Assembly (NCBI RefSeq): GCF_003675855.1
Contig: NZ_RCIH01000003.1
Span: 310,001-374,000 of the forward strand
Origin: Halostella salina
GTDB lineage: Archaea; Halobacteriota; Halobacteria; Halobacteriales; Natronoarchaeaceae
Direction: 5' to 3'
DNA length: 64,000 bases
The stretch's first letter is position 1, and every line of letters starts with the position of its first letter. A program made the position numbers and the translations under genes. A model generated the notes under the pieces. The model was given only the letters and a program-made list of their open reading frames with translations, was not told the DNA's origin and made no database searches. Below are positions 23,533-27,094 of this stretch, piece after piece.

Positions 23533-24870
23533 ATGAACCAGTCGAGACGTACGTTCCTGCAAGCGAGCGGCGCGGCCGCCCTCCTCGGCCTGTCGGGCTG
23601 TACCGGCGTGCTCGAAGGCGACGAGGGGATCGGCGACGCCGGCCCGCCGGGCTTCACGTCGTGGGTGTACGACCCGAGGGACCTCCTCGGCGTCGAGACC
23701 CGGGGCTTCGCGACGTACGACATCGAGAGCGTCCTCGCACAGCGTGACTCCCTCCCCCAGGACCCCTTCGAGGGGCTGGAACAGGCAAACGAGAACATCG
23801 ACGAAGTCGACCTAGAGGAGTTCTCCCGGCTGACGATGGTCGGCGGGAGCACGCTCAACGCCGACAACCCCGAGGCCGGCGGGTCGGCCGTCCTCGAAGG
23901 CTCCTTCGACGTGGAGACGATCACGGAGGAGATAGAGTCCCAGTCCACCGGCGTCCAGTACCAGACCGGCTCCTACGAGGGGTACGAACTGTACTACGGC
24001 TCGCAGGAAAACGAGTTCCAGGGGACGACGAACTCCTTTGCCTTCGCGATCAACGAGGAGAACGTCGTCGTCGGCGGGTCGAACTCCGACGCGATGAGCG
24101 GCCGCGGGGCGGTCGAGGCGATGATCGACACCAGCCTCGGGGACCAGGCGCAGTACTACAACCGGAGCGACTACGCCGAACGGCTCGTCAACGAACTCGG
24201 CGACGCGACGATGCTGATCGGCGTCGAGTTCGACCTCGGCACGCTCATCCGTGACCAGGTGAACAACGACAGCGCCCGTCTGGTTCTCAGCGGCCTCGGC
24301 GCGGCCGGCATGGCCGGAACGATCGAGGGCGAGACCGCCACCAACGAGATCCTGCTCGTGTACGAGGAGGACGCCGAGGTGCCCGAGGAGACCGCACAGG
24401 ACCTGCTCGACCGGGCCCGCGAGCAGTCCCCGACCGCCTTCGAGAACGTCGAGGACGTGAACATCTCCAGCGGCGACCGCACGCTCCGGTTCACGATGAC
24501 GGTCGACACCCAGCAGCTGTGGGAGCAGAGCGGTCTCGGCCCGACCGCCGTCGCCGACACCGCCACCGAGAGCAACACTGCTACTGGGCCCCCGCGAGCG
24601 TCGTTCGAGATCGAGTGGTCGGACTACGACGAGAACCGGAAGGAAGCGACGATCACCCATCAGGGCGGCGACTCGATCGACGCCGATCGGCTCTCGCTGG
24701 AGGGCGACATCGAGGCGGAGGGTAGCTGGGTCAACACCAGCGACGGAAACGTCGTCGCCGGGTCGACCACCCAGGCCCTCGTCGAAGCCGGCGGCTACAT
24801 CGCCGTCGTCTGGACCAGCGCGAACGGCTCCACGTCGGCACAGCTGGCCGGCTCCTCGGCCCCGAACTGA
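23533..24870 (+). CDS. Tat lipoprotein with a pilin-type C-terminal domain
   Basis: A 445-residue exported protein, divergent from the P19-like operon. The signal is QSRRTFLQASGAAALLGLSGC (twin arginine, lipobox LSGC). The large central domain (about 40-330) is unrecognised and strand/helix mixed. Residues about 355-440 (FEIEWSDYDENRKEATIT..., HQGGDSIDADRLSL, IAVVWTSANGSTSAQLA) match the beta-sandwich of archaeal type IV pilins, but there is no pilin signal. A TTTATA element lies 27 bases upstream. The function is unknown; an adhesion or surface-assembly role is an inference. Confidence 0.7.
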   Translation: MNQSRRTFLQASGAAALLGLSGCTGVLEGDEGIGDAGPPGFTSWVYDPRDLLGVETRGFATYDIESVLAQRDSLPQDPFEGLEQANENIDEVDLEEFSRLTMVGGSTLNADNPEAGGSAVLEGSFDVETITEEIESQSTGVQYQTGSYEGYELYYGSQENEFQGTTNSFAFAINEENVVVGGSNSDAMSGRGAVEAMIDTSLGDQAQYYNRSDYAERLVNELGDATMLIGVEFDLGTLIRDQVNNDSARLVLSGLGAAGMAGTIEGETATNEILLVYEEDAEVPEETAQDLLDRAREQSPTAFENVEDVNISSGDRTLRFTMTVDTQQLWEQSGLGPTAVADTATESNTATGPPRASFEIEWSDYDENRKEATITHQGGDSIDADRLSLEGDIEAEGSWVNTSDGNVVAGSTTQALVEAGGYIAVVWTSANGSTSAQLAGSSAPN

Positions 24871-24891: not shown

Positions 24892-25503
24892 TTACGCTTC
24901 CTCGCCGTCGATACTTCTCGCCTCGATGTGCATCCCGAGCACGAGCAGCGGGATCCCGACGATCGCACCCACGACGGTGAGTGTGAACAGCAATCCCACT
25001 ATCTGTAGCATCTTCCCGGCGTTCCGACTCGCGTCTGCCCGCGCCTCGTCACGTGATTTCCCGTCGTCGGTGCCTGCCCCGGAGCCGGCGGCGGACGGTT
25101 CGCTTTCCAGGAATCCACAGTCATAGCACATCTTCGTCCGGCTCAGGAGCTTCCCAACCCGGGGACCGTAGTGGTCCGACCCGCACCTCGGGCACGTCGA
25201 CTCGGACCGACACGAGTTCCGAACGAGCCGCGGGAGGTCAGCGAACTCACGGTCGAGGTACTCCCGTTCCTCGTCCGTGAACGGGTCGTCGTCCCTGGCG
25301 GGTGGTCCTTTTCCGCGCTGTAGCGCCCCGCATGCGTAACAGATCTTCCCAGTCGACAGCCCCGCCGCCGGGTGTCTGAACGCGACTCGCACGGCGTCAC
25401 AGGCGTCGCAGCTGTCGTTGAGGTGGGACGTGAACCGGACGTACAGCGGGACACGACCGTCCCCGTCGACGATCCGTTGCTCCCGCTCGTGTATCTCCGA
25501 CAT
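24892..25503 (-). CDS. Zinc-ribbon membrane protein
   Basis: A 203-residue protein. Three CxxC-type clusters are visible: CDACD with CYACG (about residues 32-58), CPRCG and CYDCG (about 104-128). A low-complexity acidic linker and a hydrophobic helix (about 165-193) form the C-terminus. It was not assigned to a known family. A TATATAAG element lies about 27 bases before the ATG, with a hairpin just upstream. It borders the low-GC mini-island. Confidence 0.7.
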   Translation of the reverse strand: MSEIHEREQRIVDGDGRVPLYVRFTSHLNDSCDACDAVRVAFRHPAAGLSTGKICYACGALQRGKGPPARDDDPFTDEEREYLDREFADLPRLVRNSCRSESTCPRCGSDHYGPRVGKLLSRTKMCYDCGFLESEPSAAGSGAGTDDGKSRDEARADASRNAGKMLQIVGLLFTLTVVGAIVGIPLLVLGMHIEARSIDGEEA

Positions 25504-25576: not shown

Positions 25577-25594
25577 CGGGACCGGATTTGAACC
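25577..25594 (-). repeat. Detached tRNA-Leu 3' fragment (att-like)
   Basis: On the minus strand this reads GGTTCAAATCCGGTCCCG, identical to the T-loop and first part of the acceptor 3' strand of the tRNA-Leu at 26946-27029. Flanking bases on both sides do not continue a tRNA: the T-stem 5' side fails beyond two pairs. Confidence 0.7.
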
Positions 25595-25714
25595 TCGCCG
25601 AGACGGTCGCCCTCGCCACAAGCTTTTGCACCCTTCGAGGAGGTACAGAAGCGTCCGGTCCCGTATTTGACTTCCACCATGATATTTGTAGCCTCGCTGT
25701 TCACTCTTCTCTCA

Positions 25715-26902
25715 ATGGACAGGGACGAGATAGACGAGTACGTCCGGCGGTGTCAGCAACTCATCGAATCGTCACCGCAGATGGACGAGGAGAACACGAA
25801 GGTCAAACTCGTCCAGCCGTTTCTCGAACTTCTCGGATGGGATCTCTACTCGACGGAGGTTGCGCTCGAATACACGATCCCGATGGCTTCGGGAAGTACG
25901 CACGTCGATTACGCCCTTCTGGTGGGCGATTCTCCCGTCGTGTTCGTCGAAGCCAAGCCGGTACGGTCTACCCTCTCCGAGGCCGAGGTTCAGCAGTTAC
26001 GAAGTTACATGCGTCAGGAACTCGACGTGGATTGGGGGATTCTGACCAACGGGAAGTCCTTCGAGGTGTTGACGAAGAACCACAACCGGAACGGCGGCGA
26101 GGAGGTGTCCGTGGTTCAGTTCGATCTCGACGATCTCGCCGAAAGCCCGGACGTACTGGAACTCCTCACCAAGGAGTCGATACGGTCGGGGAAGTCCGAC
26201 AAAATCGCCGAGCAGGTCGCACAGACGAACCAGGCGATTCGGTATCTGCGGGAAAACGAGGACAGCGTCACCGAATCCGTCGCCGAAGCGGTCGAGCGCG
26301 AGGTCGGCGATCTCACCGTCGACATAGAAGCCCAGTCCCGGGAGTTCGTGCAGAATCTCGTTTCGGTGCTCCGCGAACAGCGACACTTCGTCAGCGAGGA
26401 GCCGGCCACTGAATCGAACGTCGAAGGTGAAGAAAGAGAAACGAACGATACTCCTGACGAAATTCAGCCGCTTGAGAGCAAAGTGGCGGGCACTATTTCC
26501 CGGCAGGAGATAGAAGGCGACCCCGACTCACGCGTTGCTGTCTTCCCGACGAAGGAGTCGGGACTTCCGTTCCTCAAAGAGAACGAGGCTTGGGGATTCG
26601 TTCGAGTCAGTAGTGATTTCGACTACGTGGCGATGTACGTTACCGGGGACGTTCAAGAGGTGAAATACATCGCCAAAGTGAACGACGTGGTAGTCCCTGA
26701 CGAAGCCGACTTGATGCGGGAGCCACTGGACTACAAGGACCGGGCGAAGATCGCGGATGGGAAGAAGGTCATCGTGTTCGAGCCGGGGTCGCTCTACGAA
26801 CTCGAAGACCCAGTACCATACGAGTCGAAATATCCACAATCGCTCCGGTATACGACTCTCGGGAAACTACGGACTGCGAAGACGACCGACGACATGCTCT
26901 GA
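25715..26902 (+). CDS. HsdR_N-type PD-(D/E)xK nuclease-like protein
   Basis: A 395-residue protein from ATG 25715, about 30 bases after TATA-like GATATTTG. Upstream in-frame starts at 25679 and 25667 are less likely. The N-terminal domain resembles the type I restriction R-subunit N-terminus (KVKLVQPFLELLGWD, VDYALLV, VVFVEAKP), with putative catalytic Asp65, Glu79 and Lys81. There is no helicase domain and no M or S gene nearby. The C-terminal part (about 265-390; LKENEAWGFVRVSSD, VAMYVTGDVQEVKYIAKV) is a separate domain, perhaps PUA/EVE-like. Codon use is less GC-rich than its neighbours, suggesting transfer. A stand-alone defence nuclease is possible. Confidence 0.75.
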   Translation: MDRDEIDEYVRRCQQLIESSPQMDEENTKVKLVQPFLELLGWDLYSTEVALEYTIPMASGSTHVDYALLVGDSPVVFVEAKPVRSTLSEAEVQQLRSYMRQELDVDWGILTNGKSFEVLTKNHNRNGGEEVSVVQFDLDDLAESPDVLELLTKESIRSGKSDKIAEQVAQTNQAIRYLRENEDSVTESVAEAVEREVGDLTVDIEAQSREFVQNLVSVLREQRHFVSEEPATESNVEGEERETNDTPDEIQPLESKVAGTISRQEIEGDPDSRVAVFPTKESGLPFLKENEAWGFVRVSSDFDYVAMYVTGDVQEVKYIAKVNDVVVPDEADLMREPLDYKDRAKIADGKKVIVFEPGSLYELEDPVPYESKYPQSLRYTTLGKLRTAKTTDDML

Positions 26903-26945
26903 ATTGACACCGAGCGATCCGTGCCGGTTCAACACCACCGCCACA

Positions 26946-27029
26946 AGTTCGGGACCGGATTTGAACCGGCGGACCCCTACGGGACAGCGTCCTAAGCGCT
27001 GCGCCGTTTCCTGGCTTGGCTACCCGCGC
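26946..27029 (-). tRNA. tRNA-Leu (anticodon UAG) with mispaired acceptor stem
   Basis: Type II tRNA on the minus strand. The 5' acceptor strand GCGCGGG is at 27029-27023, followed by U8 A9. The anticodon stem CAGCG/CGCTG encloses loop CTTAGGA (anticodon TAG). A CCC/GGG variable arm and T-arm GCCGG-TTCAAAT-CCGGT follow. The acceptor 3' strand is CCCGAAC, so pairs 2-71 and 3-70 are C-A and G-A, and position 73 is T instead of the A usual for tRNA-Leu. A TATTTTT promoter element sits about 27 bases upstream. No CCA is encoded. It may be impaired by the adjacent integration. Confidence 0.8.
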
Positions 27030-27094
27030 TCGGCCGCACGTACTCCCGTCCCGGAAAAATACCTGTCGTTCCGAACCGGAGGCTTAAGACCGAA

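Follow-up and report, generated by a model that had tools for sequence, protein, structure and literature searches.

What kind of DNA is a single gene that lies between a tRNA gene and a second copy of that tRNA's tail, with no integrase beside it? This question is raised by a locus in the window, the 64,000-nucleotide stretch of the Halostella salina genome (contig NZ_RCIH01000003.1) that was analysed here. The 18-mer CGGGACCGGATTTGAACC was present in the window as two exact copies, at 25577–25594 and 26950–26967 (both minus strand), with a start-to-start distance of 1,373 bp. When up to 3 mismatches were allowed, the search still returned just two matches, with 0.09 expected. The proximal copy (26950–26967) consists of the T-arm and the start of the 3' acceptor strand of a minus-strand tRNA-Leu(UAG) gene (26945–27030), the sole UAG tRNA-Leu found in the genome. 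Between the two copies lies a single plus-strand gene (25715–26902; 395 aa), predicted to encode a modification-dependent restriction nuclease. The GC content of this gene is 0.572 against 0.689 for the window, and only 0.3% of equal-length windows reach a value as low. No integrase was detected at 15–37 kb of the window using a profile built from the recombinase of a congener (genome G002). These results bear out the preliminary description on two points, namely the 18-bp tRNA-Leu tail repeat around ca. 1.37 kb of lower-GC DNA with one gene, and the lack of an integrase.

The protein belongs to the Pfam family HSDR_N_2 (PF13588; 41.1 bits against a curated cut-off of 25, E = 2.1e-10), and HSDR_N also scored above its cut-off. 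In the AlphaFold model (mean pLDDT 83, pTM 0.51), residues 1–160 (25715–26194, plus strand) form an HSDR_N-type PD-(D/E)XK domain, whose structural matches were DrdV (Z 13.0), the HsdR fragment 3h1t (Z 12.6), and BpuSI (Z 11.9). Beyond a weak linker at residues 226–248, residues 268–389 (26516–26881, plus strand) are predicted to adopt a PUA-like (ASCH/EVE/YTH) fold; this region matched ASCH (Z 8.6), EVE-like, and YTH (Z up to 7.7) structures, a Z under about 8 being weak. Pfam gave no ASCH, EVE, or YTH match, and the resemblance is by fold only. No helicase or methylase domain was matched by Pfam in the 395 aa. The protein was also considered as a type I subunit HsdR, and this was rejected on its length of 395 aa, the lack of a Pfam helicase match, and the PUA-like fold of the C-terminal part. 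As expected of a type IV enzyme, the nuclease domain carries catalytic residues (D65, E79, and K81, invariant in 24 aligned sequences) on a DrdV-like fold. Judging from the model, the domain layout suggests a modification-dependent (type IV) enzyme, and the nuclease looks like defence cargo. Some relatives share 80% identity over the first ca. 245 residues and have a different C-terminal part, which fits a swapped reader. Since dN/dS against five relatives was 0.05–0.12, the gene is under purifying selection. The phage endonucleases of phrog_4225 matched residues 23–199 (7.6e-20); phage and viral collections otherwise yielded distant N-terminal matches of 22–32% identity, none covering 80% of the protein. 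A PDB sequence search gave no meaningful match, and the search for a paralogue in the same genome gave one weak match (C7:82241, 30%).

Relatives at E ≤ 1e-25 were found in 92 of the 392 genomes of the order. From 59 named loci, L141, L148, L151, and L153 were left out as short or partial matches, and the remaining 55 were analysed; tRNAs predicted with introns were ignored in the counts of tRNA distance and elements and in the wider tail-copy counts below. An intronless tRNA gene was present within 1.5 kb of the nuclease gene at 21 loci and was not found within that distance at the other 34. Within 500 b of the gene (54.2 kb in all) there were 15 tRNA genes, compared with 1.03 expected from the density at 3–10 kb in the same loci (Poisson, 4e-13), and for 14 of these the nuclease gene was on the 3' side of the tRNA. 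Seven or more kinds of tRNA are involved: Leu(UAG), Val(CAC), Ala(CGC), Gly(CCC), Ser(UGA), Arg(UCG), and Pro(CGG). Both convergent and co-directional arrangements occur; where the two are convergent and within 500 b of each other, the gap between tRNA and gene is 42–284 b. In Natronorubrum bangense, the nuclease gene lies beside tRNA-Val(CAC) on both the chromosome (L104) and the plasmid (L105) of one strain. In Halorhabdus (L106/G270), a transposon-like gene splits the nuclease gene, and an sot0042 RNA (Rfam) lies nearby (L193:8074-8243).

A tree of 32 proteins, many forks of which are weakly supported, contained 21 tRNA-labelled rows with eight labels and required at least nine label changes. 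The window copy grouped with Ser(UGA) and unplaced copies; the proteins nearest to it were those of L095 (no tRNA within 10 kb), G118, and G007. The same gene with tRNA-Leu(UAG) in the same orientation was present in G007 and, in other families, in G160, G326, G338, L101, and L103. The preliminary description had regarded conservation of gene and spacing across distant haloarchaea as an argument against insertion. The same gene beside the same tRNA does recur in G007, L097, L101, and L103, yet it also occurs at other tRNAs. Because of these other tRNAs and the nine or more switches on the tree, recurrent arrival fits better than ancestry.

With the G002-recombinase profile, integrases were detected near the nuclease gene at four of the 55 loci: L102, L107, L138, and, broken, L146. 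L102 (tRNA-Leu) and L138 (tRNA-Arg) have the order tRNA, integrase, type IIG-like restriction-methylation genes, nuclease, and tRNA copy; in both, the nuclease gene thus lies outermost, next to the distal att site, and has the same polarity as in the window. Its presence in these two tRNA elements agrees with the "passive defence cargo or degraded element" of the preliminary description. That description had also called such a unit unusual, which is weakened by two or more further nuclease units that lack an integrase and are bounded by tails: a single-gene unit of 1.6 kb bounded by a 107-bp perfect repeat (L118) and a unit of 2.1 kb bounded by tRNA copies (L127). In the window, L102, L118, and L127 alike, the 5' end of the gene faces the distal copy, at 121, 204, 300, and 172 b, respectively, and the 3' end points towards the tRNA. 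Among the anatomical features, this common orientation argues best for the mini-units being either collapsed elements or cassettes cut out of such elements. A distal tail copy was not found in most of the tRNA-adjacent loci. Other genes occupy comparable positions. At L100:11345-12589, next to the nuclease gene, tail copies of tRNA-Leu(UAG) enclose a Pycsar pair (PycC, 2e-16; PycTM, 2e-27). In genome G101 (L174), a lone gene named TFB-like by eye lies in the first 1.5 kb beyond tRNA-Leu(UAG) and is bounded on its far side by tail copies 1.4 kb from the tRNA.

We compared the same site in congeners. The interval from the conserved gene ending at 24870 to the tRNA differs in all five congeneric genomes; therefore, the tRNA-Leu(UAG) flank is an integration hotspot. 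The interval is 2.1 kb in the window. In G004 it is ca. 0.5 kb, with three extra tail copies and an intact tRNA; G002 has an element of 6.5 kb in which a recombinase gene and a methylase-like gene accompany a tRNA copy of 50 bp, and G001 and G003 have other genes. The nuclease gene was absent from this site in all four congeners, and in G002 and G004 tail copies are present there without it. The empty site that the preliminary description expected in close relatives is thus approached by G004, which is gene-free with an intact tRNA, although its ca. 0.5 kb with tail copies is not strictly empty. Outside the repeat, a zinc-ribbon-like gene of 203 aa (24892–25503, minus strand) had no aligned counterpart at the site in G001–G004 and is probably a separate accretion. 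In G007, which belongs to another genus, the nuclease gene lies beside the same tRNA, intact there, and the gene alone shows 80.5% nucleotide identity, near the 74–79% of the flanking core genes.

Do the two 18-bp copies then mark the ends of an insertion? We examined 60 tRNA-Leu(UAG) 3' flanks (711,630 b), hand-picked from among the matches listed. When up to 3 mismatches were allowed, they contained 73 tail copies on the same strand, against 4 on the opposite strand and 0 for the reversed control, and 44 of the 60 flanks, all from haloarchaeal genomes, had at least one. In a wider set that includes these flanks, a tail copy was present within 600 b on the 3' side of 46 of 71 Leu(UAG) genes and 13 of 38 other tRNA genes, and on the 5' side of 0 of 47. 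The median spacing of the copies was 117 b (quartiles, 104–126). In the genome of the window, a relaxed tail search found a copy of the own tail at 20 of 43 tRNA genes, and a strict anti-tail/tail pattern gave no match. In other orders of the phylum, own-tail copies were found at 0 of 28 tRNAs, a small sample of well-scoring ones. The anti-tail was held in 58 of 66 tail units (6.4 expected), and the units folded better than mononucleotide shuffles (mean z, −3.6). After two of the 66 were left out by length, the tail stem showed U-A/C-G covariation and the inner stem several types of base pair; the comparison was uncorrected for relatedness, and the overall alifold energy was weak (−1.7). For one module, all six genome matches with up to 1 mismatch were within 180 b of a tRNA. 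No Rfam family was found for the units in five array-chosen loci (L180, L205, L193, L214, and L166). Among the papers found outside subscription journals, including the accessible part of PMC3119063, partial tRNA copies are tied to prophages, and nothing like units of ca. 117 b was found. These tail units are a more novel lead than the nuclease unit.

The 18 bases beside the distal copy (25595–25612, minus strand; GGGCGACCGTCTCGGCGA in the minus view) form an inner-hairpin module and match the inner ends of tail units in L204 (2 mismatches) and L179 (4 mismatches); the distal copy therefore probably forms the right-hand end of a tail unit. The partial tRNA copy on the far side that characterises tRNA-integrated elements is present here as 18 exact bp, and such copies also occur insert-free. 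Since tail copies occur without the gene, the distal repeat alone cannot prove insertion. Integration at the tRNA 3' end, as the preliminary description proposed, consequently draws on the clustering at tRNAs, the integrase-bearing relatives, and the gene-free site of G004; the repeat by itself does not stand as an att duplication.

An intact tRNA is expected after integration of a tRNA-targeting element, and in the window the acceptor stem is broken: the 5' strand GCGCGGG fails to pair with the 3' strand CCCGAAC, which is followed by U. Five bases (26945–26949, minus strand) replace the expected end CGCGCA, and the identity to all four congeners ends there. Each of these has an intact tRNA-Leu(UAG) at the same place; the genes of G001, G002, and G003 end in CCCGCGCA, and that of G004 aligns with all 85 bases of the intact query. 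The match of the window gene ends at base 80 of 85, the sole such UAG gene among the matches listed, and its score (36.8 bits) is the lowest among the 44 tRNAs listed in the genome. The other tRNA-Leu genes have the anticodons GAG, CAG, CAA, and UAA, and DNA, tRNA-family, and tail-pattern searches of the genome found no second UAG tRNA-Leu. Rescue as a split tRNA was rejected, as searches of this kind showed neither a second UAG gene nor an intact matching 3' piece. Loss of the CUA codon was likewise rejected: in 41 ORFs selected for their acidity, this codon accounts for 16 of the 1,059 Leu codons. A tail copy lies ca. 100 b past the tRNA in G007, L097, and L101, which have the same gene at the same tRNA, and its end is decayed in L097 and L101. 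From its sequence, the window tRNA looks like a tRNA body fused to a decayed tail copy, which could have arisen by a real deletion or by collapse in the assembly of 17 contigs.

With moderate confidence, we regard the unit as an integrase-free remnant, or a passively moved cassette, of a tRNA-targeting integrative element with nuclease cargo. On this view, an element encoding a tyrosine recombinase would have inserted at the 3' end of the tRNA gene, with the nuclease gene as the final one ahead of the distal att site. Probably via deletion between short tail repeats, the element would then have lost its integrase along with other genes, and selection would have retained the nuclease, which would leave the unit bounded by tRNA-Leu(UAG) on one side and an old tail copy on the other. 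The PUA-like domain may recognise a modified base of invading DNA, which the PD-(D/E)XK domain would then cut, with no need of a partner methylase. Several observations weigh against this reading. The distal repeat need not mark an insertion, because tail copies occur gene-free, and 34 of the 55 relatives have no intronless tRNA within 1.5 kb. The gap of 42–284 b is tidier than random deletions would leave, and none of the reader folds was recognised by Pfam. The near-core divergence from G007 would equally fit old residence followed by loss. Such residence, in which the gene would have been inherited vertically beside tRNA-Leu(UAG) in some haloarchaea and lost elsewhere, and the repeat would be a mere tail copy, also gains from the shared gene, tRNA, and orientation in G007 and the other families. 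We consider it improbable, given the absence of the gene at the site in all four congeners, its low GC, and a gene tree that mixes tRNA types and places the window copy with Ser(UGA) and unplaced copies.

The tidy gap is more at home with a cassette that is mobile as such. Elements of this kind (CIMEs) are att-flanked and moved in trans; here the flanking tail copies would be the att sites, served by the integrases of other elements. The nine or more tRNA switches on the tree point the same way, as do the TFB-like gene of L174 between tRNA and tail copies and the order in L100 (tRNA, tail copy, Pycsar pair, tail copy, nuclease), which resembles a cassette array. We nevertheless find this doubtful, as neither an excised circle nor a transfer was seen and most tRNA-adjacent loci lack a detected distal copy. 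Rather unlikely in our judgement, and more speculative, is an extension to the tail units themselves: the structured haloarchaeal units of ca. 117 bp would be very small elements that target tRNA tails and are mobilised in trans by tRNA integrases, and the window nuclease, like the Pycsar pair of L100 and the TFB-like gene of L174, would be a gene-bearing cassette in an integrase-less, integron-like store of defence genes. Finally, the location might reflect function, with the tRNA or its transcript either sensed by the nuclease or regulating it. Some PUA-like domains bind RNA, and the bias to the 3' side is strong; even so, the many different tRNAs, the occurrence of both orientations, and the many relatives away from any tRNA make such coupling very improbable.

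On the remnant reading, the unit is a variant of archaeal tRNA-element remnants, which are already known as a kind. Haloquadratum GI3 and a 6.7-kb tRNA-Thr remnant (PMC3119063) and thaumarchaeal elements (PMC6563490) are archaeal examples; in the accessible text of both papers, such elements share with the unit the tRNA 3' end, a partial tRNA copy on the far side, and foreign composition, and integrase-free remnants are reported among them. Unlike these, the window unit is 1.4 kb with one gene, belongs to a family recurrent at many tRNAs, and has a repeat that probably derives from a pre-existing tail-copy system. The type IV enzyme VcaM4I (EVE-HNH), as described in the available part of PMC7897488, joins a nuclease to a PUA-superfamily reader without a methylase, a layout that the window protein is predicted to share; in contrast, the window protein is predicted to combine an HSDR_N/DrdV-type PD-(D/E)XK nuclease with a putative reader whose fold most resembles ASCH. 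The accessible text of PMC7641849 mentions fusions of YTH-like domains to PD-(D/E)XK nucleases. Type IIG DrdV and BpuSI and type I HsdR appear to share the N-terminal nuclease fold of the modelled protein, which unlike them has no matched helicase or methylase domain. The match to the phrog_4225 endonucleases is N-terminal, the C-terminal domain being unmatched.

These results caution against taking a short repeat of a tRNA tail in a haloarchaeon, on its own, as proof of integration. They also extend a single locus to a general pattern that can be tested: across haloarchaea, restriction-like nucleases of one family are associated with tRNA 3' ends. The little-noticed repeated tRNA tails could explain why tRNA sites collect defence genes, and if the tail units are indeed tiny elements moved in trans, spare tails would let a damaged tRNA be rebuilt by recombination.
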